A stretch of DNA of 64,000 nt, from assembly GCA_022414725.1 (NCBI GenBank), contig CM039463.1, forward strand, positions 22,143,511 to 22,207,510, in the 5' to 3' direction. Below are positions 4,424 through 63,559 of the stretch, piece by piece (position 1 is the stretch's first letter; every line of letters starts with the position of its first letter). Origin of the DNA: Microglena sp. YARC. Lineage: Eukaryota > Chlorophyta > Chlorophyceae > Chlamydomonadales > Chlamydomonadaceae. The position numbers and the translations under genes were made by a program. The notes beneath the pieces are model-generated. The model did no database searches, was not told the DNA's origin, and saw only the letters and a list, made by a program, of their open reading frames with translations.

Positions 4424-7400
4424 TTATTGGGTACTGATAGAAAATTTTGCCGCAACTTCTGGGCGGCTTGTTTGTTGATGCTCTGATGCTGTGAGTGCCT
4501 CTGAGCCTCTCGCGTCAGCAAACTTCTGCTTCATAGCTTCAGATGCTCCCCCAGGTGCTTCCCACTCCTGTATCACACTCTGCAGCCACTGCATAACAAG
4601 CCGGTCAGTCCATCGAGGGCCCCATGGAGCCCCCTCTCCTGCAAACCAACCCAGATGGCCTCCAGTCTTCGTCGTCACTAGTGTGCAGTCGGGGTTCTGA
4701 GAGATGGCTTCGTACGGAATTGAATCCTAACACATGCAAGGTGAGAAGGAGCAAGGTTAAGAGGGGAGGTGGAGGGGTTGGAGGGAGAGAGTTGAGGGTG
4801 AGCAAGAGCGAAGGATTTGTGAATTCAATAGTGGGTTAAACGTGAATTCAATAGTGGGGTGAACGTGAATTCAATAGTGGGTTGAACGTGAATTCAATAG
4901 TGGGTTGAACGTGAATATAATAGTGGGTTGGACGTGAATTCAATAGTGGGTTGAACGTGAATTCAATAGTGGGTTGAACGTGAATTCAATAGTGGGTTGA
5001 ACGTGAATATAATAGTGGGTTGGACGTGAATTCAATAGTGGGTTGAACGTGAATTCAATAGTGGGTTGAACGTGAATTCAATAGTGGGTTGAACGTGAAT
5101 ATAATAGTGGGTTGGACGTGAATTCAATAGTGGGTTGAACGTGAATTCAATAGTGGGTTGAACGTGAATTCAATAGTGGGTTGAACGTGAATTCGGAAAT
5201 CGTTACCGGCGACCACTTTTTGGTGGAAACTAAACAAATATTATGTGATGTGGCATAGCGTGGTTTGCAGTAATGCTATCTGTTTGGCACTGTTAATATC
5301 TCCAACAATACCATATGTTACTTTATCCCACGTTAGTAGGGACCAGCATATCATATGATGTTGACCAAAGGCGAGTATGATATCATATGATATCATACAA
5401 ATTGCATCATATGATATTCGTATAGAAATGGTAACTTTGGCCAAGTCAGACTGCCGACATCATATAATGTCTATAATAGCTATTTGGCTACCCCTAGACT
5501 GTAAAACTACATACACCCTCAATTTGATAGACTCGGTAATTTCTTCAACAGTACCAATAACCGTATCCCACGTAAGCAGTTAGAATACCAAGTTCATGAC
5601 ACTATATAATGTATGTTGTGTAATGTGGCATAGCGTGGTTTGCAGTAATGCTATCTGTCTGGCACCGGTAATATCTCCAACAATACCAATTACTGTATCC
5701 CACATTAGCAGCTAGAATCCTGGGTTCATGACAGTAAACAGTAGTGAGTCAACTCTAAACTTGGTGAATCCTGCTTTCATACTCACCTTGATAGACCCCC
5801 CCCCCCCCCCCCCCCCCCCTACCACACACACACAACACACACACACCTCACCTTGATATGCACTATATTATGTATGTCATGCAATGTGGCAGTAGTGAGC
5901 AGTAGTGCTTTCGTCCTCACCTTGATCAACACTATATTATATATGTTATGTTATGCAATGTGACAGCAGTGAGCAGTAGTGCTTTCATCCTCACCTTGAT
6001 CGACACCGGGTCGTTGAGCGCTTGAACACAAAGCAGGGGTACCTTGACATCAGGGATGGAGAGCCGACTGCTCCCTTGTTCATAATATTGCTCAACACTG
6101 TCCCATTCTGCATGTATGACAAGTTTGAAGGAGAGATCGTCAATAAGGTCGGCCTCCTCTGGTCTGTTCTGTTTGAGTCCTTCTGTCCGATTTGAGCTGT
6201 CCTGCTCTGTTTGAGTTGTTCTGTTCTGTTTGGTTTGAGTTTTTCTGTTCTGCTCGGTTTGAGCTGTTCTGTTCTGTGTGAGTTGTTCTGTTCTGTTCTG
6301 TTCAGTTTGAGTGATTACATTCTGTTATGTTTGGTTTGAGTTGTTCTGTTCTGTTCGGTTTGAGTTGTTATGTTCTCTTCTGTTCTGTTTTGCTTTCTTC
6401 AGTTTTGGTGACATAAGTAGCAGTACGTAAAAGTACATGCTGTACACCTTCCCCCTGTTTAGTGCTCGTACTGGGCTTGTATTTTCGGAAGAACACTTCT
6501 ATTGCCTGTAATACATCGATCAAAAATTATGTTATGGGCACGATGACTCAGGAGCACCCATCACACGCAGTGTACTGACTTCAAAGTACTTTGAAGTACA
6601 ACTTCTCAGTGGAATCAAATTATCTAGTAGTACTCGATCTCATGTCCTCCGTCTGGAGTTTTTTTCCGCTACCAGTAGCGATCGCTACCTGAGACCCTGT
6701 TTTGGCCCAACCTTCCACTACCTTGAGACTCGAATCTCAGCCCCGCCCCTGAACTCCCGGGGCCGGCCCTTCCAGCCGTCAATCCACATCCCTACCAGGA
6801 GCCCAACCTTGGAAGATACCAAATCCCTGATCACTACCAGAAGACCTCCTTTTTGAGACTGAAATAAGCTAGGCCTCTGTCGTGTCTGCCGTGTTGCGAT
6901 TTGTTGGGGACCACATCTTGAAGTGCTTGCTTATATAGCCCCTCCTGATAGCCTATAATTATCTTGATTGTTTTAGGTTGGGCAAGTCCCTTTAGCTTAA
7001 TTGGCTGCCCCCTGGACTGGAACATAGATACACACACCACCACAGCAGGGTTGATTTTTAGGCAAGGAACCAGTGTCTTAACGAAGCACGACAGTGCTCT
7101 TATCAGTGTTCGGGTGCTACAAGCAGATTTTTGACCCCCCCACCCCACCCCCCACCCCCCCGAAATAAACCTCAAAAAGCTCTAACTTTGCACCTCAAAA
7201 AGACTAAGGTGTGCATTGTAGCAATTCAATAAAAGCATAATATAATATATAAGTATTAAACTAATACATAAGTATTGTAGCACTTCAATAAAAGCCTGAA
7301 CCGCAGTGAGTGGCCTATCCTCTTACCCCCTGGACTGGAACATGTATGCATACTGAATCCTTGGTGGCGCTGGTTTGTGTAAGGGGTCCCACCTCCTGGG

Positions 7401-10400
7401 GTGAAAATCCTGTCAAAACATTGATTAAAATACACCAACTCAGTGAGTGGCATATCATCTTACCGAAGCTTTAAAGGTCACACGTTAGAGCCTTTTGGGG
7501 TTGCTTTTTAGGGTAAAAACGCTGCCAGTAGCACTTTATAGGCTGCTAGGAGCACCATGGTGCTAAGCAAAGGAAATATCTATTTCCTTGCGAAAAAGCT
7601 TGCAACTCAGTGAGTGGCATACCATGTAATAACTAATAAGTGCTGATATCAATGCCTGCTTGCTGCAATCATTCTTGCTTGCTGCGAAATTGCCTTTTTC
7701 TGAGGATTTGTTGGAAGACCCCTCCCAGATTATGTGGAGCGGGCTTGGCTTGGGCCATTGGTCGGTCGATGACAATGTAATGCAATGTAATGTTATGTAA
7801 TGTAATGTAACGTAATGCAATGTAATATCTTCTTACCGAAGCTTTTGATGGTCACAGCCTCATCAAACTGATCAAGAGTGGTGCAAGCTCGAGCTTTCTC
7901 CATATCGATGCCCTGTGCAAGGGATGGCATTTTTATTGAATTGTTAACGATTACACTTTTCCAGATAAACAGTTTTACCTCCAAAGACGGGGAGCAGCCA
8001 AATTGCTGGCAGGAGTAGCCATGTAATCAAAATAACAAACAATTAAATCTCGAGCTTTCTGTATATCGATGTCCTGTGCAAGGGATGGCAGAATCTCAGC
8101 CACAGGGTACAGAACAAAAGCGGTTGGGTAGGGCTACGACAAGAACCCTCAAGAGAAGCTTCAACAAAGGGGGATAACAAAAAGTAATCGTCAATCCTCA
8201 ACCCCATAGCTCTTCAACCCTCAACCCTTTACCCTAAACCCTGTACCCTCAACTCTGCACCCTCAACCCTGTACCCTCAACTCTGTACTCTCAACCCTGT
8301 ACACTCAACCTTGTACCCTCAACTCTGTACCCTCAACCCTGCACCATCAACCTTGTACCCTCATCCCTGTACCCTGAACCTTGTACCCTCAACCATGTAC
8401 CCTCAACCCTGTACACTCAACCCTGTACACTCAACTCTGTACCCTCAACCCTGCACCCTCAACCTTGTACCCTCAACCCTGTACCCTGTACCCTCAACCC
8501 TGTACCCTCAACCTTGTACCCTCAACCCTGTACCCTCAACCTTGTACCCTCAACCCTGTACACTCAACCTTGTACCCTCAATCCTGTACCCTCAACCTTG
8601 TACCCTCAACCCTGTACACTCAACCCTGTACATTCAACCCTGTACCCTCAACCTTGTACCCTCAACCCTGTACCCTCAACCCTGTACCCTCAACTCTGTA
8701 CCCTCAACCCTGCACCCTAAACCCTGTACCCTCAACTCTGTACCTTCAACCCTGTACCTCAACCCTTTACCCTCAATCCTTTACCCTCAACCCTGTACCC
8801 TCAACCCTGTACCCTCAACCCTGTACCCTCAGCCCTGTATCCTCAACCCTTTACCCTGTACCCTCAACTATGTACCCACAACCCTGTACCCTCAACCCTG
8901 CACCCTCAAACCTGCATCCTCAACCCTGCACCCTCCACCCTCTAATCGCCTCCAATAGCCAAGAGAAGAAATAACTAATGGTGTAAGTTTCACTCAGAAA
9001 GTTAGAAGGAGAGCTCAATAATATTGGATTCCACCACCATAGCTAATATTGTTGGCTATTAGCAGCAGCTTCTAGGCAGCTCCCCTGACAGGCTATTCAG
9101 CCAAACCTAATGCCAGCTAGTCCACCTCAAAGCTGACACAATCAGCTGTCCAAAATGATGGCATATTTGTAGGGGTTGGCTATGTAATATTATATGAGTG
9201 AATAAATAATATTATATAATATTAGTCAGACGAGCCGTCTCACCAGAAACTTGAATTTATTTGAAAAACTTATAATATTATTAGTTCATATTAGTTTTTC
9301 GAACACTAATATTAGTTGCCGTCCCCTACATATTTGGGTGAAGCACAGTGTATGGCGCAGGGAGCTGCCTAGAAGCAACTAAAACAAGCTGAAAAGAAAA
9401 GCCCTGTCCACCACACAAACTCTGTGGCGCAAGATCCACCATGACAGAAGCCAACAATCCATCACGAATCCAATATTATCGAAAGAAAGTTAGAAGGAAC
9501 GCATGACCATATTGGATTCCACCGCACACAAAAAGTGCGCCAACTCTTTGGTAGGAGTGGTAATGCCATTCAAACTGAAACCTCAGTGTCGCTGGTTTGT
9601 GTTGTGAGACCCATCTCCTGGGGTGAAATTCCTTTCACAACTGAAAAACAAAATTGGGGCAGCGGCCTCCATGGCACAAGCCATCAATCCATTATGAAAC
9701 TGTCACGCATAGTTAAATATAGGATTCAATTATCACTATAGCACAAACTCAGGGCCCCTGTTGGTAAAACTATTGTTTGATATTAAGTTCATCAGTGTTT
9801 TTTCTGTTTTAGACCCTTCTGATATCATGGTTGGGCAAGTCCCTTTAGTTTATTTAGCTACCCCTGGACTGTAACAACGTACATACAACCCATACATCCA
9901 TCATAAATCTGCCTCCCAAAGCTCCATCTGCCATGGCTCAACTCCTGACTGGCTTACCTTTGCACAGTTCCACACATTCTCCTGCTTGGCTAGACTTGAG
10001 TTGAATGCCATCCCCACCATCACCGCCGCATGTTGATCTCGATCGCCCTCCAAGGGCTTGGACTGCCTGAAATGGAAAGACCAGTTCCGAGATGGGCTCC
10101 CCCATCCACCCCCACCCACCCACCCAGACCTAACTACCCAACCGCCACCCACTCACCTACCTACCCACCCACTCACCCACCCTTACCTTCGTATTGTTCC
10201 ACATGCTCATGCTTGGCTAGGATAGACTTGAAGGCCAACGCCAGACCCCAGTTGTAGATCTGGCTTCCGAGATGGGCTCCCCACCCCACCCCGACCACCC
10301 CCACCATTACCTTTGTATTGTTCCATCTGGCATGCTTAGAGTAGGCTTGAAGGCCAACGCCACCGTCGCCACAACACACCGCATGTTGCTCTTGATTGTC

Positions 10401-13400
10401 CTCCAAGGGTTTGGACTGCCAGAAATGGCAGGGCCAGTTCCAAGATGGGCTCCCCCACCCACCCCCACCCACCCCACCTCAACCTTGGCACCCAACTCCC
10501 CATCCACTCACCCACCTGCCTACCTACCCACCCGCCCAGCCACTCACTCACCTACCTACCCATGGGCCCCTGCCCCACCCACCCTTACATTTGCATTGTT
10601 CCAAACGTGCTCATGCTTGGCTAGAATATACTTGAATGCCAACGCCACTACCACCACAACCCCACACACCGCATGTTGATCTTGATCTTCCTCCTAGGGC
10701 TTGGACTGCCCGAAATGGCAAGACCAGTTCCGAGATGGGCTCACCCACCAACCCACACAACTACCCACACCTACCTACCCAACCGCCCACCCACTCACCT
10801 ACCTACCCACCCACCCACCCTCACCTTTGCATTGTTCCACACATGCTCATGCTTGGCCATAATAGACTTGAAGGCCAACGCCAAGCCCCAGTTGTAGATC
10901 AGGCTGAAGGTCTGTGTACAGGTTAACCCAAAATAAGTTAGACGGAGTGTGTCTTTGAGTTTGGCCCAGTGACGTGCTGTACAGGTAAACCCAAAATGGT
11001 GTGGGTACAAGTAAATCCAAAATAACTTAGTTGTAGTGTGACTTTTGAGTTTGGCCCAGTAACTTGCTGTACAGCTGAGCCCCAAATAATTAGTTGGAAT
11101 GCGAAATTGAGTTTGACCCAGTGACTTGCCTGGGGAGGCGGCCAGAAGCCAAGATTCACAGCTGAAATTACACAGCCCACAATGGCAGCGTTGCAAGATA
11201 GGTCCAGTAAGGTCCATTTTGATACGATTTAGTGGTCTTAGTAGGATGTTTTGCCGTTTTTCTGGCTGTCGTCTTTGGTTTCTTTCAAGCTGATATTCAA
11301 ACGTGCATATATGATGGTCAGTTTTGAATTAGAATGCACTCCAGGGGGATGACAGCCCCCCCCCCCCCCCCTCTTGATTGGAGGTTGGCCCCAGTGCAAG
11401 CGAACAGGCTGACCCCCCCCCCCTCAACCTCATGCCTCGCAATAAGGCGTAATATTTTTTTAAGCTTGGACTCACTTTGCTGACCCCTAAAGCCTAAAAC
11501 TTGCACTCACTGTGCTGACCCCTAAAGCCTAAAACTTGCACTCACCGTGCTGAGGTACTTCCGCAACATCGTCAGATGGAAGGGCTTGCAACTGGGATTT
11601 ATGAGGGCTGTTGTTATAGCAATTCAGCAGATGATTTGAAATCGACAGACGTAGATCATACTTCGTACCTCAACTTTTCCAGGCAAAACTTACCACAGTC
11701 ATCCCAGATATCTCAAAAATCTTGGAATTCCAGGCCAAATATGTGGTACGATCTACGACCTGTTTCGAAATTTCAAAATCTAAATCATCCGCTGAATTGC
11801 TATAAATACGTTGGCACACACCGTGCTGAAGTACTTCCGCGTTGTGGTGAGATGAAAGGGGTTGCATAGGGACACCGCAGCCTTGATAGGACTCCCATCT
11901 CCCTTTTCTCCAAGATACCTGATGAGTGTAGGTGCATGTGCAGTGAAGGGCAGAGAAGCAGTGGTGGCGAAGCTGGGCTTGTAAAGTTAGTAATGTGAAG
12001 TTTGAAGTCGGTAGTGCAGTTTCGGAGACCTTCCAACCCAATTTCTGGTCCAATTCGGACCACTGGCCGGACGGCTGGCTGATAAGACCAAGATGCCTGA
12101 AAGACAACAAGCCCTTTCAGCCTACATGGCTCATTGTTGTTCTTTGGCAACACAGGGTGAAAAAGTCCCCAGTCAGTGCAACCGGTGCCACCACGAAAAT
12201 AGAGGAAATACCTCATCCATGTGTCTTTTTTATATATTAGCAAGTCAGGGGATGACTTGGAATCGACATTCATAGGTTGTATTTCATACCCCCACATTTC
12301 CAGGCCAAATGTACAACCATTCTCCCAGAATGATCAGAAGTATGGAAATTTCAGGCCAAATTTGAGGTACAAATTAGGACTAGTGCTGCTACTTTGATGG
12401 GACTCGCTTCTCCCTGTTGACCAAGATACCTGATGTGTGTAGGTGTACATATGTTTTAGTCCAGGCGTTGGCAAATAGGGCGTTAGGGACTTGCCCAACC
12501 GTGACAGGTAGGGCTGGAAAGAAAAAGAAATGATGAAGTGAACCCCAAACAATCGTTTTACCAACATGGGCCCTGAGTCCGTGGTACTGTGACAAATTAA
12601 TTCTACAACCAGAAAGGCAACAAGCACATGACAACAAGGATGACAACAGGCACAGGAAACTCTTTCAGCCTACATGGCTGATTGTTAGGGAACGAGGATA
12701 TGATATAATATGCGGGGATGTCAAAAACACGATATTTTCTGGATTACCGAACGATATCGTTGTTATTGTTATTTTACAACCAGGGGACGGCATATCATGT
12801 CATGCTGACCAAAGGCGAGTATGACATCATATGATGTTGACCAAAGGCGAGTATGATACCATATGATGTTGACCAAAGGCGAGTATGATATCATATGATG
12901 TTGACCAAAGGCAAGTATGATACCATATGATGTTGACCAAAGGCGAGTATGATATCATATGATGTTGACCAAAGGCAAGTATGATACCATATGATGTTGA
13001 CCAAAGGCGAGTATGATATCATATGATGTTGACCAAAGGCGAGTATGACATCATATGATGTTAACCAAAGGCGAGTGATATCATATGATGTTGACCAAAG
13101 GCGAGTGATATCATATGATGTTGACCAAAGGCGGGTATAATATCATATGATATTGACCAAGATCCCTGAAAGACAGCAAGCACAGGAACCTCTCTCAGCC
13201 TCCATGGCCCATTGTTAGGGAACGGCAATATGATATCAGAGGACATCATGTCATCATGCAATTTATATAATATCGTTCTCACCTTTGGTCAACACCAAAT
13301 GATATGCCGGACCCTACCCACTCTTGTTCTTTAACAACACATGGCGGGCAAGTCCACAATCGGTGCATGGCTACCGCAGAAAAGGGAAACATAAAAAGGT

Positions 13401-16400
13401 TTCATCCATGTGCTTTCTATACTCAGGGCCCCTGTCGGTAAAACGATTGTTTGGGGTTCAGTTCATAAATGCCTTTTGTTTTTAGCCCTTCCTGTCACGG
13501 TTGGGCAAATCTCTTAAGCTTATTTGGCCTACCCTGGACTGCAACATGTGCACAAACATAGCAATTCAGGGGATGATTTTGAATTGGCAGTCGTAGGTCA
13601 TACTTCTTACCTAGACTTTTCAGGGCAAATTTACGACCATTCTACTGGAATTCTCAGAATGCAGGGAATTTCATGCCACGTTTCAGGCAAAATTTGAGGC
13701 CAAAGTATAGGCCCAGTTTTAAGCCTAATTACGACGTACGACCTGTTTCGAAAATTGAATTAAATTGCTCTTACAACACAGGGTGGGCAAGTCCCCAATC
13801 ATGGCATGGCCACCACGGAAAGGGAAAACGGCTCCTCCATTGTGATTTTTATTTCAGATTTATGTAGGCCAGGATGAGTAGCTACCCAGGCTACTTAAGC
13901 CTGATTTCAGGATTGTTGCATAGCCATCGCATGGTGGAGTGCGAAGCGCAAAGGGTTCGAGTGGGGCAGCGCCAAACCTATGCGTTGCCATGCAACGACA
14001 GAATGGCGACGCAGTGGCGATGCGTTGTTGAAAAATAAAGGACTGCTTATCCATTGTGCTTTTCTTTTCGGCTTTGAGCAGCAGCTTCTAGGTAGCTCCC
14101 CTGACTGGCTATCAATCCAACCTTAACCAGCCTGGAGCAGCTGGAAGCTTGCATAATCAGCTTTTCAGCACTGCTGAAATATTTGGGTGTAGCCTTGTGG
14201 CTGGCTCAGGGAGCTGCCTAGAAGCTTTTTCTATTTCCCAGAGGAGTTAGGTCTCTCTCAGGGTTTTCTTCAAGGTGCTACTTGTAGCACTTGTGCTTCA
14301 TTACTTGCCTTGTTGCTTTGGGAGTGCTACGCTAGAGCCTGCTGGGGGTTCTTTTGGGGGACAAAAAGGCTGCTAGTAGCACTCAGAAGGCTGCTAGGAG
14401 CACCATGGTGCTATGTAACGACACTGGTTTATTTCCTTCGAAACAAACCTCATTTCTCTTCTGTGTTTACGGCTTCAGGCACATGAAGGTCCACACAAGC
14501 ACTGTTGTTGTGGAACGACGCGTCGCAAATTGAGCGAATCGGTGCTACCCCAATACAACGTGCTGCCCCCCGAACCCCCCTAGGCTCTGTGCATCGCGCT
14601 TCGACCTAATCCGTGCTACGCCATAATCCTGAAATCAGGCTTGCGTCGCAACATTTGCTACAAAATTGGACCAACAGAAAGCTGGAAATAAAAACTGCAC
14701 AAAAGCAGCAGCATGTAAACACAATTTATAACTCCTGGCTAGATCTGGGGGAAGCCTGGGGAGAAGACCTAGTAGCAGCACTTTGCAACACTTAAACTAT
14801 GGTTAATACATTGGTTTATACACTGGTTTGTACACTGGTCCATACACTGGTTCGCTCAATGGTTCATACAATTGTGTTTACAATGGTCCATACAATTGAG
14901 TTTACACTGGTTCATGCAATTGTGTATATAATGGTTCAAACAAGAATGCCTACCTGACAAGAATGCTGGCTCCCATAGACCAGGCAGCTGGCTGGTTTGA
15001 AAATATAGGGAAAACATAGCAAAAAGCGTGTAACTGTAGGCAACACATAGCAAAAAGCATGCAAAGTAGGGAAAGCGAGTTTTTTAATACAAGCATGCAT
15101 ACCTGACGAGAATGTTGGCTCCCATAGACCAGCCAGCAGCCATCAACAGCAGCTTGGGAAACTTCTTGCTGATGTGAGTCACAACAGCACTGCCAGACAT
15201 GGTCAGACAATAAACTACGTCAGAGGGAGTAGTTTTTCCGTGCCTTGTGACAGAGTTCATCAGACAAAGGGTTTAGTTTAACAAAATAACAGTTAAGGGG
15301 TTTCGGTATTCAATTAAGCTACTCCCACCTGTTCCAAACTACTCCTTTTTCTACATGGTTGAGATAAAGGAAGTGGTGTAAATGCGACATATAACAGTGC
15401 AACTCAGGCTATCATTTACTTTGAAGGAAAGGGGGTTAGTAAGCCCCCTCCCTTTAAATAATGTGTATGCTGTTATAAAACAAGCTGTTGAGAGAAAATA
15501 CTTGTTTCATTACAAAGTTGAAGTTCAAAGATTGATTATTGGTCGTGCTGCAGGATACGGTGCAAAGGAATGTCACTTTTATGTGAATGCCAGTCCCTAT
15601 CAGACATGGTTGAGAGAATTGAAACAGTGTGGGTGCAATGTATAAGAGTCATGGGGGTCTACGGTGCAAAGGCATGTCACTTGTATGTGAATGTAAGTCA
15701 CAACAGCCCTGCCGAACATGGTTAAAAGTGAAACGGTGTGAATGCGGCATATGGCATATGACATATGACATCCCAGAGAACATATGACTTAACATAGAAC
15801 ATATGACATATGATATAACATAGACAATATAACATATGACAAATAACATATAACATTTAACAGTGCGCAAAGGAATGTCACTATGTGAATGTAAGTCACA
15901 ACAGAACTGTGAGGCATGGTTGAGAGAAGTGAAGCAGTGTGAATGCGACATATAATAACCCAATTGTGGGATACGGTGCATAGAAATATCACAGTTGTCA
16001 ATGTAAGTCACAGCAGCCCCGTTTGACTCAGTTCAGAGGAGCGCCACTCAATTAAGACCTACCCCATTGCATTACACGAAAGTACAACAGTGAGATATGT
16101 CATACGCCACCAGCGCAAGACATTGGTGGTATCTTCAGCCTGACTACAATTGTGATGGTGTTACTTAGGAACTCACCTTAGGTCCCCTGTATATCAGCCT
16201 GAATACAGTTGTGATGTTTTATTGTGGTGTTGTAATGTGGTGTTGTATTGTGGTGTTGTTAAGTGTAGTCTTGTGGTGTTGTGACTGTGTAGTGCCTCAC
16301 CTTAGGTCCCCTGTATAACAGCCTGAGTACAGCTGTGGTGTTGTGGTGTAGTGGTGTTGTTGCGTTGTGACTGTGTAGTGGTATGGTGTAATGGTGTAGT

Positions 16401-19400
16401 GGTGTTGTTGTGTTGTGACTGTGTAGTGCTATGGTGTATAGACTGTGTAGTGCCTCACCTTAGGTCCCCTGTATAACAGCCTGAGTACAGCTGTGGTGTT
16501 GTAGTGTGGTGTTGTGGTGTTGTGACTGTGTAGTGCTATGGTGTATAGACTGTGTAGTGCCTCACCTTAGGTCCCCTGTAGAACAGCCTGAGTACAGCTG
16601 TGGTGTTGTGGTGTTGTGACTGTGTAGTGCTATGGTGTTGTGACTGTGTAGTGCCTCACCTTAGGTCCCCTGTATAACAGCCTGAGTACAGCTGTGGTGT
16701 GGTGGTGTTGTGACTGTGTAGTGCTATGGTGTTGTGACTGTGTAGTGCCTCACCTTAGGTCCCCTGTATAACAGCCTAAGTACAGCTGTGGTGTGGTGGT
16801 GTTGTGACTGTGTAGTGCTATGGTGTTGTGACTGTGTAGTGCCTCACCTTAGGTCCCCTGTATAACAGCCTGAGTACAGCTGTGGTGTTGTGACAGGACT
16901 ATCAGCTGTACCCCTACTGTTAAAGACGACTGCCCGGATGCCGCTCCTACGTGCAGACTCTACCGCCCAACAAATGTAGGATGACTCACTACCCTGGGTG
17001 AGTCCAGGGAGCATGAGCAAGAGGGGGGCGGTGGGGGGCAAGGAATCCTGGGAGGGGTGAATGAGCTTGATGGGGTTGGGGGTTGGGGGGAGTGGGGGCG
17101 GGGGCAGGGGGGGGAGACGTGTATACTACCCATGTTTACTCTGCCTGCAGACGGTGAGCAGTCTGAAGGCTGACAAGACCATGTAGTCAAACAAAATTAC
17201 ACCTATTAATGTTTTGCAACAATGCACTTGCTCACACCTATCAATACCATATTCCAATGCGAATACCTAAGCCTAACAATTGCATATTGTTAGGGACCGG
17301 CATATCATATGACGTAGACCAAAGGCGAGTATAATATCATATGATATCATACAAATTGCATCATATGATACTGTATATAAAATAAACTTTAGCCTAGTCA
17401 GACTGCCGGCATCTTATGATGACATGCTATCATATGGTATCATATTGAGATTCCCTACATATGTTAATGCGGATTGTCAAGCCTATCAACTACACATTTC
17501 AATGTGAATACTCACATCTAACAAACACATTTTTAATGCAGATATTCACACCTATCAATTACATATTTTATTGAAAATACTCACGGCTAACAATTAAATA
17601 TTTTAATGCGGATACTCAAGATTCACGTCTAACAATTGCATATTTTAATGTGGACACTCACGCCTATCAATTACATATTTTATTGCGAATACTTACATCT
17701 AACAATGTCAAATCTTAAAGCAGATACTCACGCCTATCAATCGGATATTTCAATGCGGATACATACACCTATTGATTAGATATTTGAATACGGATACTCA
17801 CGACTAGCGATGTTATGTAGCAATGCTGTATACACACCTATCAATGGCTTACAAGGCATCAATGGTACACATGCCCAGCTGTGTTATGTAGCAATGCAGT
17901 ATACACACCTATCAATGGCTTACAAGGCATCAATGGTACACATGCCCAGCTGTGTTGTAGCAATGCAGTATACACACCTATCAATGGCTTACAAGGCATC
18001 AATGGTACACATGCCCAGCTGTGTTATGTAGCAATGCAGTATACACACCTATCAATGGCTTACAAGGTATCAATGGTACACATGCCCAGCTGTGTTGTAG
18101 CAATGCAGTATACACACCTATCAATGGCTTACAAGGTATCAATGGTACACATGCCCAGCTGTGTTGTAGCAATGCAGTATACACACCTATCAATGGCTTA
18201 CAAGGCATCAATGGTACACATGCCCAGCTGTGTTATGTAGCAATGCAGTATACACACCTATCAATGGCTTACAAGGTATCAATGGTACACATGCCCAGCT
18301 GTGTTGTAGCAATGCAGTATACACACCTATCAATGGCTTACAAGGTATCAATGGTACACATGCCCAGCTGTGTTGTAGCAATGCAGTATACACACCTATC
18401 AATGGCTTACAAGGCATCAATGGTACACATGCCCAGCTGTGTTATGTAGCAATGCAGTATACACACCTATCAATGGCTTACAAGGTATCAATGGTATACA
18501 CGCCTATCAATGGTTTACAAAGTATCCATGGTATACATGTCCAGCTATGTTATGTAGCAGTGCGGATACGAATGCCTCTCAATGGTATGTAGCCATGCAG
18601 ATGCTCATGCCTAACAATGAAAAAAAGTAATGATAACACCTGGTGGGATGTATTAAGGGAGCCCCTCGTATGCGGGCAGAGAACGGTCTACGACCTCAAC
18701 TGGACAAGCTACCATCGCGGTTGACAACGACCTGCAAAGCTCAGGGTGACCGTAGGGGAAAAAAAAACCGACCCCGCTTCGTTTCAACAATTTGGTGTAC
18801 AACTAGACCAATTGTATCACTGAAACGGGCTGCCTAACAATGAGATTTTTGAATGTTGATAATACACCTATCAATGTTATGTTGAAATGGTTTAAACGCC
18901 TTTCAATGGTATACATGGTATCAATGGTTTACACGCCTATCAATGTCATGTATCAATGTCATGTTGCAATGTCATTTACGCCTATCAATGGTATGCAGCA
19001 ATGCTCACATCTAACTCCCAGTCCAGAGTGACGATGCCCCCATCTGCCATGTGCAAGAATTCTCTTGAGTAGCTTAGCTTCGGGGCCCCCATGTACCTGT
19101 TGGCAAAGATGGACTCACAATGCCCTTCGGATAAAAAGGGTGTGGGCTTGTACAGCTCCTTCAGTATGGGGCAGCGGTCAAGAACCCATGTGTTGAACCC
19201 TGTTGCGCTCGCGTACACCTTGGGTCGCTCTGTCTTTGCCCTGGCATCTATCACCGCCCTGACCCACGCTGCACACATGGTGGGGGGGGAACTGGTCAGC
19301 ACTTAGCTGGTCAACACTTGGTTGAAGGTGGTTAAGGTTTAGGTGGTTTAGGGTTTAGGTGGGTAAGGTTTAGGTGGGTTAGGTTTAGGTATTTAGGTGG

Positions 19401-56742: not shown

Positions 56743-59700
56743 TACCAGTTGTTGGGAATCATGGGCCTTGGTATCTGACAGGTAATGAATGGCATCTCAT
56801 GTGATTCAGAGAAGGGCCTCTCGTGTAACGACTTGGCCACACGTTGGATATAGTGGATGGCAAGCTCAGCCGTAGCTCTGAAAGGGGCAAAGAGGAAAAA
56901 GGTGTTAGGGAGTAAGAAGAAAAAGGTGTTTGGGGCAAGAAGGAGAAAAGTGGTATAAGATGAGCCGCAGCTCTGAAAGCGGATATGGGGTGAAAGGTGT
57001 TAAGGGGCGAGAAGGTGAAAAGTTTTATAACATGAGCCGTAGCTCTGTAAGGAGCAAAAAGGAAAAAGGGGCAAAGGGGAAAGAAGAAGAAAGGTGTTAA
57101 TAAATCAATGTTTAATTAAAATAAATACATGTTACGCCTTATGATGAGGTGTGAGGTTAAGGGGGCCAGCCCGTCCGCTTGCGCTGGAGCCAACCACCAA
57201 TGAGAAAGGTGTCCTGAGTTGAGGAGCAATATTCTTTGAGAGCGTGCTGGGCTTGTGAGCCATGTACACTACACCTCTTACACACTGACTGAGTGATTGA
57301 CTGACTGACAGACGTACAAATACCCTCATACATACTGGTACATTGTTGCTCTCTACCTTTGAACATAGTTACCTAAAGGGTAACCAAAGCAAAAACAGCA
57401 TGTCCACCTGTCCAACCATACCACCAACACACCCATTCCTCCATCCATCCGTCCGTCCCCCCCATCCAAGCCCATCCATCCATCCATGCATCCGTCCCAC
57501 CAACCCATCCATCCATCCGACCCAACCACCCACTCATCCATCCACCCATCCATCCAACCATATATCCGTCTTTCCCACCCATCCCACTCATCCCCATCCA
57601 ACCGACGTACTTGCTGCCGGCATGACCAAGATGAACCCCATCAGGCAAGTAGAAGTGGTCTTGACGGGTCTCCAGACCAGGAGTGTAATTACGAAAGTTG
57701 TCCATTGACAATTTCTCAAAACCTAGGGGCAGGAGAGTTGTTGGATGAGCAGCTCAACGATGATTGCACTGCTTTTTATTTTATTTATGCGTTTGTGTTT
57801 GATAAACATCTGTATGTGCATCTGTGTGTACGGAACGGCAACTAATATTAGTGGTTGAAAAACTAATAAGAACTCATATTATTATAGTTCCACAATAATA
57901 TTAGTTTTCCCCTGGTTTTTCAAATAAATTCGAATTTCTGGTGAAACGGCTCGTCCGACTATATTATATACGAATATATAATATTATGTATTCACTAATA
58001 TTATAGAACATAGGCGACCCCTAGATATGCGTGGCATGTCGAACTGTTGTAGCATTGAGGCTGTACACTTTTGCATTGCCATTCAAATACACCCGAGGTT
58101 CAAACCTAGCTCACCCTTGCTCAGTATGCTGTGTATGTACGTAGTTTTAAAAGTCCAGGGGTATCCAAAAAGACTAAAGGGACTCGCTCGACCTTAAAAA
58201 TATGACAGTCAGTTTAAGAAACAAGCACTGGTGAACTGAACCCCAACAAATTGTAGACGACGGGGGCCTGGACTTCATGATTTCCAGATAATTTAACTTC
58301 AGTATTTATAGGGAACGGCAATATAATATCATATGATGCCGGCAGTCTGACTAGACTAAATTTAGCATATATATAATATCATATGATATCATACTTGCCT
58401 TTGTTCAACATCATATGATATGCCGGTCCCTAAGTATTTATCAGAGACCATGGGAAGCCAGGTTGGCTATTGCAGACTGGCCATGCTCGATACCATAGCT
58501 TTTATTTTCCGCTTCGAACAGCAGCTTCTTATCAGCTCCCCTAACTGGCTATTCAGCCAAACCTAACCCAACCTACTGCACCTTGAAGCTGTCACAATAT
58601 AATGTCCAAAACTGCTGATATATTTTGGGTGTAGCACAGTTCCTGGCTAAGGGAGCTGCCTAGATGCTGCTACGAAAATCTAAAAAGAAAGGCCCTGCTC
58701 AATATAATTATTTTGACCTGGCCCCACAGAACCGTGCTCACCATTTCTCAGTAAGTGAAACGTAGCTGCCTTGACTGAAATGACTGGCAGCTCGTAATAG
58801 GTTGCAAATTCAACAAATTCTCTTTCTGCATTCTCCCAGTAAGCATCTGGCATGGGAGAAGCATAAGTATACATTTAAGTAAGGTGGGATAAGTATAAGT
58901 ATAGGTAAGGTGAGATAAGGAGAACTATGAGTATAAATAAGGTGGGATAAGTATAAGTATAAGTAAGGTGAGATAAGGAGAACTATGAGAATAAATAAGG
59001 TGGGATAAGTATAAGTCTAAGTAAGGTGAGATAAGGAGAACCATGAGTATAAATAAGGTGGGATAAGTATAAGCATATGTTAAAGTAAGGTGGGATAAGT
59101 ATACGTTTCAGTCGGGTAAGATAAGTATACGTATACATAAGGTGAGATAAGCAGAACCATGAGTATCAGTAAGGTGGGATAAGTATAAGTATAAGTAAGT
59201 TGAGATAAGCAGAACCATGAGTATAAGTAAGGTGGGATAAGCTAAAGCTTAAGTAAGGTTTGGCATTACTCAGAGTTGTCGTCATGAGTGTTATGGTAAG
59301 TGTTATCATGAGTGTTGTCATGGAAAGTGGTCATGGTAAGTGCTATGGTCATGAGTGATATGTTAAGTTGTATGGTAAGTGCTATCATGAGTGTTGTCAT
59401 GGAAAGAGTTGGGGATTGCGATGGAATAGGATGCAATGGAATGCATTTGGCACCAAACTTGAGAGCATCAGTAAGCAGGAGCATAAATCAGCACGTCATA
59501 TATTTATTTGGTGTGTTCATTAGCGTAGTGTGAATGACGTATGCAAAATTCTCGAGTCCCACAGACTTAAACCTGAACAAGTCTTCAAACTATCTAATCC
59601 ACATAGCATGCTCCCTGGTTTCCGTGGGTTTAGTACGAGGGAACTGGGAATTAGAAGACGGTGAGCAGCCCAGAGTTGGCTGAAAAAACATGTAACAATT

Positions 59701-61329
59701 CAAAAATTCAAATTCATGTCCCAAAGTGTTGAGCGTTTAGGGTTCGCAAAAGTCCTCGACATTTTTCGTCAGCAGGTAAGAGCTTTTCTTTTCAGCTTCG
59801 AGGAACGTCTTCTAGGCAGCTCCCCTGACTTGCTATTTGGCCAAATATAACGCAGCATAGTGCACCTTGGCGCTAGCACAATAAGCCTCTCATAATTGCT
59901 GAAATATTTGGGTGCATCACAGTGGATGGCTCAGGGGGCTGCCTAGAAGCTGTTGCTCGTAGCTCAAAAAAAGGCCTGGAGCAAGTGCTGTGGCACGTAT
60001 TGTGGCATGGGTATTGGCTATGGATTGTCCATCCGAATAATAATTCGAGAAGTTGTATTACATTTAAATAGTATACAACTTCTCGTAAACATTTTTTTTT
60101 TACCATTTTGACTGATTTGGAGAAAATTCCCTTTAAAATCCCTGTCTGATACTAAAAAATACTAAACTCATAATATGCACAATAGAAGAGAGCTCCAGCA
60201 TGAACATTAGCATCTTGCAACATCTTTTCATTGTTTGGTTTGATGTACGCATTATTTGGTTTGATGTGCGCATGGTGGGATGGGTATCAGGTATGGATTA
60301 ATCTAAGACAAGCAAGGGCGAGAGAATGAGTACCTCACAACATGTGATGAATTCTTTGTATGCTTCTTCCTCACTTATGTAGGAATGACTCTGCCGATCA
60401 CATCAACACAATCCTTGAGTGTAGGGCTAGTGCACGGAGACATACCCTTTGCAGCGGAAATTCTTGACGTAAAAAACAAAAAGCTTTGCAGCGTGTTTTG
60501 TGACATGGCTGTTAAACGTGGATGCACTGTTTCATTTTGGGCTACCTATGGCAGCTTCCCGCCAGCTCCGATATCCAGCCCGGGAGGCCTTGGGCCATTT
60601 GAATGCCTGTCATGTCGGCTTCAAGACGCACTAGCTAGCATCAGGTTTATCCCAAGGACAGGGAAGGGGAGCTGCCTAGAAGCTGCGACGCGTATCCCTA
60701 AAAGGAAACTGTAATAGTCATTAATCGTGAAGATTTACTAAACTACATATTCAGGACGGCCAGGCAAAGAAGATCTAATTCATTCATGCTTACAATAATG
60801 TAATGAAATGAAATGAAATGTAATGTAATGTAATGTAATATAATATAATATAATGTAATGTAATGTAATGTAATGTAGTGTAATGTAATGTAATGTAATG
60901 TAATGTAATGTAATGTAATGTAATGTAATGTAATGTAATACAATGCAATGTAATGCAATGTAATGATATGTAATGATATGTGATGATATGTAATGATATG
61001 TAATGATATGTAATGATATGTAATGTAATGTAATGTAATGTAATGTAATGTAATGTAATGTAATGTAATGTAATGTAATGCAATGTATTGCTGCACCTAC
61101 GGTTTCTTATTATCTCTGGGTGTGTCCATCGGAATAGGTTGAGAATAACTACAGCTGGGCGATTGGGGAAATTCATCAATCTGCGAAGGAGGCGCTCAAA
61201 GCCAGCCCGGGGCTTGTTGAGAAATGGAGGAAGTATCTGGAGCAGGATTGTGTTGGGGGGTGGGGGGGTTAGAGTTGTGTCGTGTTGTGTTGGGGTTTTT
61301 TGAGTTGTGTTGTGTTGTGTTGTGTTGTG

Positions 61330-61367
<38 letters not shown>

Positions 61368-63559
61368 CTGATCCCTATAGTTGGTGACATAGCAAAATTT
61401 GCTCATCTGATCCTACACCACGTCACCAGCATGACATGGTCAAGCAAATGCCCAAGCCTTGTCCTTCCTTGGATCAGACACACATGTGGAGCAAAGCAAA
61501 TCCCTTATGCAGTTTTGTTTTTTGAAAGGATTTTTACCCCAGGAAGTGGGACCACATAACAGCGCACACCGAGGAGTCAGAGAGAAAGGCGGAGCAAGTC
61601 CAACAGAACTTTGGGAGGGACCCAATACCTGGATAATGGAGCTGGCTGGAAGCTGCCATGCGTAGCCCCAAAAGGAAACGGTGGAAGTTATATATATGGA
61701 ATAGAGGTGTAATCCACCATAGCAAGCCTTTTTCATCCGCTACCTATAGCGATCGCTACCTCAGACCTTGTTTTGGCCAAAACTACCGTTACCCTGACAC
61801 ACCCAGGGCGGCCCTTTGGGCTACCCTATCCAAATCACTACCTGAATCCCAGCCATGGAAAGTGCCAAATCCCTGAAAGCTACCAGACGACACCCTTTCT
61901 GAAACAGAAAAAATGCACTCCACCATACACAAACATATCTGTAAGGCATATTCCCAGGTGCCCAAGTGCCTTCGCTAGGAGCCCCGCAAGAGGTTGGAAG
62001 TAGAAGCTTGAGAGCAAGCTAAGTCGAAGAGAGGGGCTGTACGTAGAAGCATGAGAAATGTGCGTAGAAGCATGAGACAGGTATGTAGAAGTGTGAGGCA
62101 TGCACGTAGAAGTCTGAAGCCTGAAGCATATGCTTGAATGCAAGTAATGCACCAAAGTGTATAGTATCTAAGAGGGCTACTTGCTTTCCACAAAGGCAAG
62201 GTTGACTGGAAGTGCTACGCCTACATGATAACAGCCCCCCCACCCACACACCCATCCACCATATTTGAGGTTGGCCCCAGTGCAAGCAAACGGGTTGGCC
62301 CCCTGAACCTCACACCTGGAAATAAGGCCAACTATTTATTTATTTATTTGTTTGTGTATTTATTTATTTATGTATCTCATATTTATTTATTTGTTTATGT
62401 GTTCATTTGATTCCTTTTTATTGATTAATTTATGCTACACCTACATGGCTGCTCTTGCACCAGTTTGCCACATGTCCCAAGCTGCAGACAGGGATTTCAG
62501 GTTTACGGCTTGGCCTGGTTGGGGTTGATGCTACAGGAGTACACATCAAAAAATTGGAATGCTGACAGATTGGTGGAAAACTAGGGCGTTCAAGTTGTGT
62601 TCATGCGTACACCCGTACAGATGTGTACATCAGAGGCCCCCCAAATGGTCCCAAATAGCCCCCCAAATACAAGTATGCCCATACACTTCCCCACCAACAT
62701 TGCCAGCTTCCTACAAACATCCCCAATTGCTAGGTACTTTGCCACAAGCATGAGCTCAACTGTCGTACACATGCCAAATTGTGTGCATCCGCTTCAGATC
62801 AGCTTCACAAGATGGTGTGTCCCAAATATCCATGTGTCACATGTTGGTTACTTACTAGGGATGGGTCGTTTACAGCAAACTCCACCTGCAGGGTGTAGTC
62901 AGAATGAGCATGGATAAGCGTGGCAAGGCATAGGGTGGTACGGGTATTGGGTGGGTTAAGGGGTGGTATGGGGAGTGGGGAGTGGGGAGTAGTGGGTTGG
63001 GTAGTGGGGTGGGTAGTGGGGTGGTATGGGAAGTGGGGTGGGTAGTCGGATGGTGTGGGGAGAGGGGAGTAGTGGTGTCGGGAGTAGGGCACCATGGGGG
63101 AAACACTGTGTGAATTCGAGCGCTTGTGACATTCAACATAAAACGTGCACATTTATGTATCTGGTGCGTCCTTCATAATGCCTTTAGGGATGGTGTGTGG
63201 TACTTGAATGGAAAAAAATGAAGATGGGATTATCTAGAGAAAAATGTCCGTTAGTCCGTTAGTCCGTTAGTCACAAAACAACATTTTCGAGTTTCATGAA
63301 AAACAACAAAACATATGAACAGGTTGGGCAAAAAAGCTACAATTAACGGTTCACTATTTGATATAAGGGTGCCTTGAGCTGACAATTCAAATTTGAACCG
63401 CAAGTGCAATAACTTTAATGCTTCCACTCAACTGTTTGGCGTTTCCGCCGACCTTGGTGCTTGCGCACTGACTGAGATCAGAGCGGCCTGGTGGACATGA
63501 CAAGCGCAGCGAATATCCGCCAGCGTGGCAGCCTGGCGGCCGTCCAGTCCAGACCTGAA
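39534..63559 (-). CDS. SGNH/GDSL hydrolase-domain protein, 5' end outside the window
   Basis: Twelve exons join in phase (1227 nt, 408 aa seen): 63559-63473, 62885-62856, 61212-61101, 58846-58742, 57722-57611, 56877-56746, 54694-54631, 51766-51680, 49548-49423, 44792-44729, 42383-42232, 39689-39534. Key parts: [19 protein letters not shown] (SGNH block with Asn), [40 protein letters not shown], and [13 protein letters not shown], which supplies the catalytic DxxH. A C-terminal region follows: [68 protein letters not shown] and [12 protein letters not shown]. This SGNH plus Cys-rich beta-type C-terminus recurs in chlorophyte proteins, probably secreted glycan O-acylesterases or acyltransferases (inference). 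The GDS nucleophile block must lie to the right of the window. The first exon is tentative; the rest are supported by motif and phase. The gene covers at least 24 kb. Confidence 0.82.
40155..40312. mobile_element. MITE family R3 copy
   Basis: TAGGGAGCGGCAATATGATA, CTGACTGGGCTAAAGTTACC and a GCCAGTCCCTAAATA end, in the last SGNH intron. 40740-40820 next to it is an AAT/AGT microsatellite. Confidence 0.65.
41105..41690 (+). pseudogene. Degenerate charged coding stretch, possibly transposon-derived
   Basis: Across shifting frames: [20 protein letters not shown], then [20 protein letters not shown], then [20 protein letters not shown]. Arg/Gln/Glu-rich internal repeats of this kind precede the N-terminal domain of Helitron proteins in some eukaryotes, but no helicase or Rep motif is visible. 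It lies antisense inside an SGNH intron. Confidence 0.35.
41860..42135. repeat. G-rich low-complexity stretch
   Basis: GTGTG and GGGGG runs; the proline-rich frames on the minus strand are artefacts. A short AAT run (42150-42180) adjoins the SGNH exon at 42232. Confidence 0.7.
42515..42670. repeat. ATCC-type microsatellite
   Basis: Degenerate CATCCATC repeats following an R2 copy. A similar array is at 57425-57600. Confidence 0.85.
42776..42965. mobile_element. Foldback MITE R1 copy
   Basis: AGCTATGAGTAGCAGCTTCT with GGCAGCTCC, and CTGCTCGTAGCTGAAAAGAA at the right end. Confidence 0.7.
43275..43483 (+). mobile_element. tRNA-headed SINE
   Basis: AACACACCAAATTGCTTAAA, GTCGGGGGTTTGATTCCCCC (B box), CTGTCAACCGCGATGGTAGC and CACCAGGCGTTCTCATTAC. 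First head type, with part of the 5' end diverged. Two R2 copies follow at 43610 and 43695. Confidence 0.75.
43936..44466. repeat. ATG/GTG trinucleotide array
   Basis: 530 bp of GATGAT and GGTGGT triplets with an internal pattern of about 40-60 bp (GTGGTGGTTGTGGTAGTGAT). Poly-Met and poly-Ile frames here are not genes. Confidence 0.95.
44930..45115 (+). repeat. Retroelement end shared with 1050-1210
   Basis: TTTCCCACACCGTAGTGTGA, GAAATGAAGTATTC, then CCCCAGGGCGAAACC. The same words in the same order follow the LINE zinc-binding fragment at 1.05 kb. Confidence 0.6.
45226..46680 (+). pseudogene. Retroelement ORF1/gag-like gene, with intron and in-frame stop
   Basis: Exon 1 starts at ATG 45226 ([15 protein letters not shown]), is Lys/Pro/Ala-rich and ends in a coiled coil ([20 protein letters not shown]) at 45595. 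A pyrimidine-rich GT-AG intron (45596-46102) joins in phase to [17 protein letters not shown] and [24 protein letters not shown] at 46360 then interrupts the frame, which continues [20 protein letters not shown] and [21 protein letters not shown] frameshift near 46620 is needed to reach [18 protein letters not shown]. Basic N-terminus, coiled coil and position between element ends suggest an RNA-binding ORF1. No database check was possible. Confidence 0.5.
46692..46817. repeat. Near-perfect 58-bp inverted repeat
   Basis: Left arm from ATGCAGGACACGATGTGGAC to GCCCATGCAAACAAGG; right arm is its complement with one mismatch (ACAGGATG); the spacer is about 11 bp (ATTTTAAAACC region). The arm duplicates the end of the ORF1-like frame ([15 protein letters not shown]) in inverse orientation. 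Confidence 0.93.
46826..47245 (+). repeat. Retroelement tail, second copy
   Basis: TTGGTAGTAGCCCAAAGACA to ATTCAGGAAATATGAAAAGC, matching 1386-1830. Internal segment 46910-47000 has a small inverted pair (GGATGTGATCC / GGATCACATCC). The adjoining 47395-47520 contains ATCACATCGACACAATCCTT, which recurs at 60395. Confidence 0.6.
47795..47866 (-). repeat. Copy of the SGNH exon-9 end
   Basis: The complement reads GAAGGTGGGCAAGTCATTGT and TTCCTCGGAGG, echoing GGTGTTCAACCAGGAGAAGT, CGTTGTTTCCTCGGAGG of the exon at 49548-49423. The 100 bp outside (GCGCACGGAGACCCACCCTT, ATCCTTCTTGCAAAAAAA) are also duplicated, at 49335-49400. Confidence 0.75.
47867..49290. repeat. 28-bp minisatellite, about 51 units
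   Basis: Unit CACAGCCCCATACCCACAAC plus CTCACACT, with a CAGAC/CATAC variant. It is intronic in the SGNH gene. On the gene's strand every unit contains GTGAGTGTGAG, a donor-like word. The 234-codon frame here is a repeat translation, and there are no unique spacers, so it is not a CRISPR array. Confidence 0.95.
49785..50165 (+). repeat. 82-bp tandem array grown from family G
   Basis: Four to five units of GCTGTTTTGTGTACACGGAC, CCACTTCCTGGGGTTAAAAG and CAAACTGGCCAGGCCTGGGT. The first unit is preceded by the usual family G start (CTGAATCTTTGGTGGGTGC). The interior GGGCAGTTGGCTTGG part is absent from other G copies. SGNH intron. Confidence 0.85.
50583..50715. mobile_element. Small TIR element with CCTAAACC interior
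   Basis: Ends AGCCCCCACTTAAG (50583) and CTTAAGTGGGGGCT (50702), perfectly inverted, 133 bp. The interior is CCTAAACCCTGAACCC-type sequence, recalling the interior of the introner at 19280-19435. No target duplication is evident. Confidence 0.55.
50812..51081 (+). CDS. Doubtful 89-codon open frame
   Basis: Starts [20 protein letters not shown] and ends [14 protein letters not shown]. Composition looks protein-like (amphipathic middle, basic RRRQRED run) and it is not a simple repeat. No family recognised. It lies antisense in an SGNH intron and may be a transposon remnant. Confidence 0.3.
   Translation: MDGNIAPVKQSFASGQVSSKWINVANALQHFLTIQTLLSLFIPLLPNAARFKNMRRRQREDVLARVHEIEKVNPFESASNLVLVWANED
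51820..52015 (-). repeat. Two copies of the SGNH exon-8 acceptor edge
   Basis: The true exon starts ACACACAG|GGCTTTGAGTAC at 51766. Copies in the intron upstream read CACAG|GGCTTTGATTTTGTC (about 51840) and CACAG|GGCTTTGAGTTCATT (about 51985), translating GFDFVSEA and GFEFINEA against [13 protein letters not shown] microsatellite separates them. Confidence 0.85.
52591..52634 (+). mobile_element. Internally deleted SINE
   Basis: TTGGTCTAGTGGTGCACC is joined directly to ACGCCCCACCAGGCGTTCTC, i.e. the SINE A-box region fused to the last bases of the tail. Confidence 0.6.
52640..54625. repeat. Repeat-filled SGNH intron
   Basis: R1 fragment (52670-52790), family J (53315-53460 and complement 54475-54610), family I (53650-53765), a set of CATGTAACAATCC repeats (53755-54110), the palindromic GAGACTAGACTAG element (54125-54210) and a poly-C run (54485-54500). 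No gene. Confidence 0.45.
54910..54960 (-). repeat. Copy of the SGNH exon-7 acceptor edge
   Basis: The complement reads CTTTGTAG|AAAGCCGTTGGCACAG and CTGCTTCTTTATG, i.e. [10 protein letters not shown] against [10 protein letters not shown] of the true exon (54694). The acceptor is intact. Confidence 0.8.
55020..56440. repeat. Repeat-filled SGNH intron
   Basis: Family F (55025-55110), R2 (55555), poly-C (55770-55797), family K (55870-55930), family G (55945-56100) and family H pieces (56220-56310). No gene recognised. Confidence 0.45.
56445..56485 (-). repeat. Copy of the SGNH exon-6 donor edge
   Basis: The complement reads ATACCAAGGCCCATGATTCC and CAAAGAACTG|GTATTG, matching the true end (CCCAACAACTG|GTAATG at 56746). 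A CAT microsatellite lies between them (56615-56745). Confidence 0.8.
56960..57060 (-). repeat. Two copies of the SGNH exon-6 acceptor edge
   Basis: True acceptor CTTTCAG|AGCTACGGCTGAG at 56877. Copies CAGAGCTGCGGCTCAT (about 56968) and CAGAGCTACGGCTCATG (about 57042) follow upstream, in units with an AAAGGTGTT word. A family F copy follows at 57120-57210. Confidence 0.75.
57425..57600. repeat. ATCC-type microsatellite
   Basis: CCATCCATCC repeats running up to the donor of the SGNH exon at 57611. Confidence 0.85.
57838..58022. mobile_element. AT-rich element, family R4
   Basis: AACTAATATTAGTGGTTGAA, TTCAAATAAATTCGAATTTC, TGGTGAAACGGCTCGTCC. The complement-oriented copy is nested in R1 at 9170-9330; a piece is at 39203-39265. 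Ends about TAGGGG/ACGGCAACTAATA. Confidence 0.6.
58313..58438. mobile_element. MITE family R3 copy
   Basis: TAGGGAACGGCAATATAATA and CATATGATATGCCGGTCCCT are inverted ends around CTGACTAGACTAAATTTAGC. Confidence 0.7.
58495..58700. mobile_element. Foldback MITE R1 copy
   Basis: CATAGCTTTTATTTTCCGCT and CTAAAAAGAAAGGCCCT as ends. It lies within 50 bp of the donor of the SGNH exon at 58742. Confidence 0.65.
58865..59425. repeat. Two adjoining tandem arrays upstream of an SGNH exon
   Basis: 58865-59255: units of AAGGTGGGATAAGTATAAGT alternating with GAGATAAGGAGAACCATGAG. 59270-59420: units of ATGAGTGTTGTCATGGAAAG and GTAAGTGCTATGGTC. Both are in the intron before exon 58846. Confidence 0.85.
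59778..60705. mobile_element. Two R1 copies in an SGNH intron
   Basis: 59778-59978 (GCTTTTCTTTTCAGCTTCGA to TGCTCGTAGCTC) and 60536-60705 (GGCTACCTATGGCAGCTTCC to GAGCTGCCTAGAAGCTGC, shorter type). Between them only AT-rich DNA with no gene. The piece 60375-60470 matches 47475-47520 and 47720-47770. Confidence 0.55.
60795..61088. repeat. TGTAA microsatellite
   Basis: About 290 bp of TGTAATG repeats, starting 13 bp from the donor of the SGNH exon at 61101. Confidence 0.95.
61327..61368. repeat. 42-bp poly-G tract
   Basis: An uninterrupted run of G following GTGTTGTGTT repeats, about 115 bp from the acceptor of the SGNH exon at 61212. Confidence 0.95.
61735..61905. repeat. Family L, second copy
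   Basis: CCGCTACCTATAGCGATCGC, CCTTGTTTTGGCC and AATCCCTGAAAGCTACCAGA, as at 6655-6865. A family G piece (complement) is at 61515-61560. 61910-62580 holds a short GAAGCATGAG array (62000-62110) and family F with a TTTA run (62270-62400). Confidence 0.6.
62945..63095. repeat. G/T-rich (minus: C-rich) array before an SGNH microexon
   Basis: GTGGGGTGGGTAGTGGGG units. On the gene strand this is a roughly 150-bp C-rich tract with almost no AG, ending at the acceptor CTGCAG of the 30-nt exon at 62885. Confidence 0.7.

Follow-up and report, generated by a model that had tools for sequence, protein, structure and literature searches.

Exon-edge copies in the introns of Microglena sp. YARC: probably the exon-anchored part of a general local duplication

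Partial copies of exon edges, here called echoes, are found in the adjoining introns of genes of the green alga Microglena sp. YARC. They were analysed in a window of 64,000 bp, which is the whole stretch of DNA considered here (bases 22,143,511–22,207,510 of contig C2, in a genome of 568,105,699 bases and 2390 contigs). According to the explanation that we regard as very probable, each echo stems from a local direct duplication, and exon-intron borders are hit about as often as other intron points; the duplications likely reflect a genome-wide tendency to duplicate in tandem, by replication slippage or unequal exchange, and are filtered by selection on exons. Since borders are copied at the rate of introns, the echoes are best described as the exon-anchored part of a general local duplication.

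Three genes of the window were modelled, with all exon borders resting on homology, reading frame and splice consensus, not on RNA:

4424–19655, minus strand: EMB8/YheT-like alpha/beta hydrolase gene, nine exons modelled from tblastn with green-algal relatives and P0001, splice consensus and frame
19655–19444, 19274–19009, 17047–16848, 15189–15103, 11918–11822, 10911–10825, 7912–7837, 6108–5995, 4726–4424, minus strand: hydrolase exons
29527–34627, plus strand: P4H gene (PF13640), modelled from P0121 and relatives
29527–29646, 29759–29860, 31979–32110, 33325–33460, 34394–34627 (start of this last exon approximate), plus strand: P4H exons
57611–62885, minus strand: gene that we take to be SGNH-hydrolase-like, four exons modelled from open frames and splice consensus, its 5' part lying beyond the window
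62885–62856, 61212–61101, 58846–58742, 57722–57611, minus strand: SGNH exons

The hydrolase model is approximate at both ends of exon 1, at the start of exon 2 and at the end of the last exon. It matches the EukProt protein P0001 over the common exons, whereas P0001 skips exon 7, includes intron sequence and has a different 3' end; the next relatives listed include Pleodorina, Volvox, Astrephomene, Chlamydomonas and Haematococcus. The P4H gene matches P0121, whose gene number is next to that of P0001. The SGNH exons are the weakest models, because the homology search for this gene gave no matches. A search for exons by codon usage, with the LRR frame as training set, and motif scans were taken as leads only, and an Rfam search gave 0 matches. 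The window also contains, at 23028–24995 on the minus strand, a 656-codon open frame in which a 69-bp leucine-rich unit is repeated about 24 times, a tandem duplication within likely coding sequence, as well as open frames at 45082–46800 that are possibly part of a mobile element.

To search for echoes, simple sequence was masked and each edge (up to 120 exonic plus up to 120 intronic bases) was aligned with the intron next to it. From a total of 68 matches, the 20 with at least 10 exonic bases were kept and the 48 with fewer were set aside. The kept matches, with identities of 77–96%, belong to hydrolase exons 3–8 and P4H exons 3 and 5, and 15 of them cross the border by at least 8 bases on both sides. 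The following copies were catalogued:

16136–16892, minus strand: array of 94-bp units in which the final 44–45 bases of hydrolase exon 3 are joined to the donor GTGAGG (TRF, alignments)
14940–14982, minus strand: copy of the exon 4 donor edge, 29 exonic and 14 intronic bases, 91% identity (alignment)
15691–15722 and 15889–15920, minus strand: two copies of the exon 4 acceptor edge (alignment), the remaining unit being similar too
11530–11590, minus strand: copy of the exon 5 donor edge, 80% (alignment), with an interspersed element with inverted ends between copy and exon 5
12394–12445, minus strand: copy of the exon 5 acceptor edge, 87% (alignment)
9953–10647, minus strand: the exon 6 end with its donor, copied four times at irregular spacing, 79–88% identity (alignment)
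8046–8090, minus strand: copy of the exon 7 acceptor edge, 91% (alignment), separated from the exon by an interspersed repeat
7452–7482, minus strand: copy of the exon 7 donor edge, missed by the edge alignment and passing in the probe-based tests
5909–5932, minus strand: copy of the exon 8 donor edge, within a 74-bp tandem duplication at 5864–6006 (TRF, alignment)
31577–31674 (AG kept) and 31752–31856 (TG), plus strand: two copies of the P4H exon 3 acceptor edge (alignment)
34723–35584, plus strand: degenerate copies of the P4H exon 5 end, the best at 34748–34937 with the donor (alignment)
58103–58126, minus strand: weak 24-bp copy of the donor edge of SGNH exon S3, with the border crossed

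In the exon 3 array, which has at least five copies, exon 3 is itself the first of the units, the junction is AAG/GTGAGG (the slash marks the border), and the far end is more decayed. The end of hydrolase exon 4, TTCTCGTCAG/GTATGC, recurs 149 bases further on, and the start of exon 7, GCACAG/GGCATCG, recurs 161 bases upstream of the exon, while the longest exonic part copied in the window amounts to 102 bases (P4H exon 3). The first-pass annotation, made on the sequence of the window, had claimed echoes at hydrolase exons 3, 4, 5, 6, 7 and 8 and at P4H exons 3 and 5; copies were indeed aligned for each of these hydrolase exons and at the P4H exon 3 acceptor and exon 5 donor. Its description of the copies as local direct duplications across exon-intron borders is likewise borne out by the alignments. 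For hydrolase exon 2, claimed as less certain, the match involves intron sequence alone and fails to span the border, which fits the doubt expressed. The echoes claimed for SGNH exons 6–9 are mostly unconfirmed on the modelled exons: among the eight SGNH borders examined, exons S1 and S2 showed no echo, the matches at the S3 acceptor and the S4 donor do not cross the border, and the weak S3 donor copy is the one that stands.

Local copying in the window goes beyond chance, with 549 direct matches up to 1 kb apart (score of at least 36) against 60 inverted ones. A set of 269 local pairs falls into 39 clusters spanning 26,263 of 64,000 bp, and the middle 80% of local pairs are 73–95% identical. 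Furthermore, 15 ten-kilobase stretches were sampled at positions fixed beforehand on contigs C1–C5, five of them being retained despite runs of N. In these stretches, direct copies up to 1.5 kb apart take up a mean of 38.0% of the non-simple bases (median 33.7%, range 0–99.6%) and inverted copies a mean of 1.8%, while six pieces of the window gave 15–52% for direct copies by the same measure. Local direct duplication is therefore widespread, and the window is not unusual. Because a substantial fraction of the hydrolase introns consists of such copies, the idea that they are a source of intron growth can be retained as likely.

In probe test 1, which relied on 70-base probes, a flank of 1.5 kb on each side and a threshold of P ≤ 0.01 against far segments, local copies were found for 9/16 donors, 6/16 acceptors and 7/18 exon centres, compared with 45% of 276 random intron points and 31% of 276 intergenic points; masking had removed one donor and, from each control, 24 of the 300 points. 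In probe test 2, based on 60-base probes and using border sets shifted along the introns as the null, 15 of 33 window borders had a local direct copy, against 12.46 ± 3.75 expected (P = 0.26), with 9/17 for donors (P = 0.135) and 6/16 for acceptors (P = 0.62). The background in this second test was 0.588 for hydrolase introns (619 points), 0.116 for P4H (173), 0.249 for SGNH (181) and 0.254 outside these genes (1580), and exon centres had a copy in 2/9, 2/5 and 0/4 cases, respectively, for the hydrolase, P4H and SGNH genes. The proposal that copying is special to exon edges thus fails: borders do not rise detectably above arbitrary intron points, either in the window or in the two paralogues described below, and, with all copies counted, edge copies were not detectably commoner than copies of arbitrary intron segments in both the probe comparison and the shifted-border test, an outcome that the first-pass annotation had itself named as counting against its claim.

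The same picture emerges from the share of bases covered by local direct copies (score 32, within 1 kb). This coverage is 0.227 in hydrolase exons and 0.507 in hydrolase introns, 0.000 and 0.133 in SGNH exons and introns, and 0.196 outside the three genes; inverted copies cover 0.000 of exons, 0.023–0.076 of introns and 0.014 outside. The P4H gene shows the reverse order (exons 0.300, introns 0.113), which counts against reading the echoes as part of a general duplication. Going into the exon, coverage passes from 0.41 to 0.23 at donors and from 0.31 to 0.00 at acceptors, with ups and downs, and no clear peak was found at the exon-intron borders of the three window genes. With border copying at the intron level and no such peak, a process aimed at the junctions, which had been offered as a possible mutational signature, is unsupported.

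Further copies of the hydrolase gene were found in the genome in a search with P0006. Three of them are long, one being at C6:5.91–5.95 Mb, and two long paralogues were analysed, namely A (C1661:30501–46500, the gene of P0006) and B (C2:21157001–21171000). The pattern is strong in both. In paralogue B, 11 upstream copies, mostly in steps of 157 bases, repeat the first half of the exon that corresponds to window exon 2, and six downstream copies repeat the end of the one that corresponds to exons 7 and 8. In paralogue A, the start of the exon 2 equivalent also recurs upstream, and exon 5 is present in three open copies bearing both splice dinucleotides and a broken fourth. As in the window, borders with a local copy in A and B (18/24, two masked borders having been dropped) are at the level expected (18.62 ± 2.73, P = 0.68); intron points have a copy at rates of 0.751 (450 points) and 0.796 (465), and exon centres in 5/14 cases. 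Across the hydrolase and its two paralogues, 59–80% of intron probes have a local direct copy. An echo with a score of at least 30 is present at 16 of 28 flanks of the three genes, and the gene's own edge outscores the paralogues' edges in 16/16. Because the own exon edge is always the best match, these echoes probably arose after the three genes separated, although later homogenisation could also yield the best match to the own exon. Exon 3 of the hydrolase (17047–16848), which is in one piece in the window, is split by an intron at the identical place in A and B, an intron having been lost here or gained there. Two extra copies of the end of the last hydrolase exon, each with an additional tandem piece, lie about 0.5 Mb off, at C2:22654107 and 22678089; the region C2:22.65–22.69 Mb was rejected as a paralogue locus, since only pieces of the last exon are present there.

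From a mechanistic perspective, a general local duplication filtered by selection could account for the sidedness of the copies. If a duplicated unit spanned a donor, the first exon-intron junction would stay in use and the extra exon end would turn into intron, so that donor copies would lie downstream; if it spanned an acceptor, the last junction would stay in use and acceptor copies would lie upstream. Where a duplication fell within an exon, the protein would be altered and selection would mostly eliminate it. Extra copies left in the intron would then decay as intron, re-amplify into arrays or be split by inserted elements, and the introns would lengthen. The claim that donor copies lie downstream of their exon and acceptor copies upstream of it holds as an observation: in the window, donor hits score higher downstream in 9/9 cases and acceptor hits upstream in 5/6, with one tied, and in the paralogues the best donor copy is downstream in 9/9 and the best acceptor copy upstream in 8/9, the exception being the repeated whole exon. 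This is the pattern that selection on exons would leave. Moreover, substitutions between exons and copies, counted by codon position (34/303, 23/304 and 43/301, with copies within one array being non-independent), fit a constrained exon next to a freely decaying copy.

An alternative is that duplication starts preferentially at exon edges, for instance because of breaks or slippage associated with splicing or transcription, and that selection then keeps the number of copies low. Its basis is a subset test in which only copies spanning the tested point were counted: borders spanned by one or two copies number 9/33, against 3.34 expected (P = 0.004, post hoc). In the paralogues, the same subset comprises 5/24 borders against about 2.9, an expectation summed by hand. 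When all spanning copies are counted, however, the window has 12 borders against 9.54 expected (P = 0.20), and array cases with three or more copies are found at 2/16 hydrolase borders, against about 34% of intron points. The slow change of exons also makes copies anchored in them easier to detect; under an assumed detection advantage of 1.5 the P value of the excess becomes 0.05, and under an advantage of 2 it becomes 0.20. The simulated bias, with evenly spread ages, is only 1.24-fold, and the remainder of the excess is therefore unexplained; it is treated as a lead, because points with one or two copies were split from arrays after the data had been seen. With total border hits at the intron level in both the window and the paralogues, and coverage without a clear border peak, preferential seeding at exon edges appears unlikely. 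It is similarly improbable that junctions are true hot spots, shedding one or two copies into the intron time and again and doing so independently for each copy of the gene, with a spliceosome that obeys a strict nearest-to-exon rule and ignores many perfect sites.

Some isolated echoes might instead be target-site duplications, left by mobile elements inserted at exon edges, with the intervening DNA being the element. In fact, an interspersed MITE-like element with inverted ends (TATAGCAATTCAGC...) is found at 11591–11805, between the exon 5 donor and its echo, and has relatives near 12238, 13558, 35453 and 36102; similarly, the interspersed repeat between the exon 7 acceptor and its echo (7930–8045) is common to 2044–2118, 3343–3384 and 32708–32762. 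On the other hand, about 24 extra bases separate the first element from the exon 5 echo, at 45–64 bp a target-site duplication would be very long, and the echoes at the donors of exons 3, 6 and 8 and at the acceptor of exon 4 are arrays, so that this origin is quite improbable. The rest of the duplicated unit is also similar at the exon 8 donor, the exon 4 acceptor, most copies of the exon 3 donor and 3/4 copies of the exon 6 donor; no such similarity was found at the exon 4 donor, the exon 5 donor, the exon 7 acceptor, the P4H exon 3 acceptor and the P4H exon 5 donor, and inserted elements explain two of these five echoes, not all. The elements lying between exons and echoes therefore make duplication followed by insertion and decay likely as the general course of events. 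A further interspersed element, a stretch of about 90 bases at about 5333–5424, has at least about 40 copies in the genome, mostly 92–100% identical.

The idea that selection maintains the echoes as functional splice sites (decoy, reserve or recursive) draws on the preservation of the splice dinucleotides, as GT or AG is kept in 17 of the 18 copies that cover it. The claim that the copies usually keep these dinucleotides is thus correct as a count, but retention is not significantly better than in the flanking bases (P = 0.35 for intron columns and 0.17 for exon columns). The donors of some copies are closer to the consensus than the real ones, with GTGAGT against the real GTGTGT for exon 5 and GTAAGG against GTGAGG for exon 6; nevertheless, each of the 15 echo sites tested would, if used, introduce one or more in-frame stops, and ordinary intron points are copied equally often. 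The earlier suggestion of buffered or alternative splice sites therefore finds no support, and selection for a splicing function is very unlikely; from the reading frame, the exon-proximal site is inferred to be the used one. It is extremely unlikely that the copies are assembly artefacts: although tandem arrays are hard to assemble and runs of N occur in the sample as noted above, the local pairs have the divergence given above and are often irregularly spaced, and a similar pattern is seen at two further loci of the same assembly.

Among known systems, the closest parallel is a human one. Turri and colleagues are said to have described, in 1995, a minisatellite giving multiple splice donor sites in the transcript of the human interferon-induced gene 6-16 (IFI6). 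The likeness consists in a tandem unit that holds a splice donor and is present in several copies per intron, as in the 94-bp array of exon 3; by its title, however, the human case is a single array with used donors, while in the alga many borders per gene, donors as well as acceptors, are involved in a copy-rich genome with no sign of use. Minisatellite units are arranged head-to-tail, measure about 10–100 bp and vary in number between individuals. The 94-bp array at the exon 3 donor and the 74-bp duplication at the exon 8 donor have this layout and unit size and span a splice site, as candidate minisatellites, whereas the spacing of the other echoes is longer or irregular. Tandem exon duplication, in which a whole exon is repeated with both splice sites, is found at exon 5 of paralogue A and differs from the window, where only partial exons are repeated. 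Introner elements are near-identical introns inserted in many unrelated genes; the echoes match their own exon best at every flank with an echo.

A model of intron gain by tandem duplication of a segment with AGGT, in which the intron ends derive from the duplicated exonic AGGT, is outlined in PMC4974935. It shares with the present case a tandem duplication that includes coding sequence and is made harmless by splicing; in the form outlined there, it differs in that the similarities it predicts were not found in 15 introns of the window (30 tests, lowest P 0.033). For relatives of Chlamydomonas, growth of satellites and long introns of unsettled cause are mentioned in passages of PMC8226300. 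As far as those passages go, the likeness lies in algal genomes enlarged partly by tandem repeats and in long introns without a settled cause, while the window units differ in being local, in deriving from neighbouring sequence and in taking in exon edges. A literature search, limited to titles and abstract openings of open-licence papers, gave no description of exon-edge copies of such a kind. What looks new is the extent of the phenomenon, with many borders per gene, both types of site, the presence in each of three gene copies, and about a third of the sampled DNA consisting of local copies.

Local duplication provides a concrete and countable likely cause of intron growth in algae, for which long introns without an agreed cause are noted in passages of PMC8226300. 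The echoes are also a warning for gene prediction, which can mistake them for exons, because P0001 includes as coding the sequence 9959–10069, from the intronic exon 6 array, and P0006 has three copies of one exon end. Finally, many look-alike splice sites would have to be ignored by the cell, and the echoes thus offer a natural test of how the spliceosome chooses one donor among several identical ones in series.
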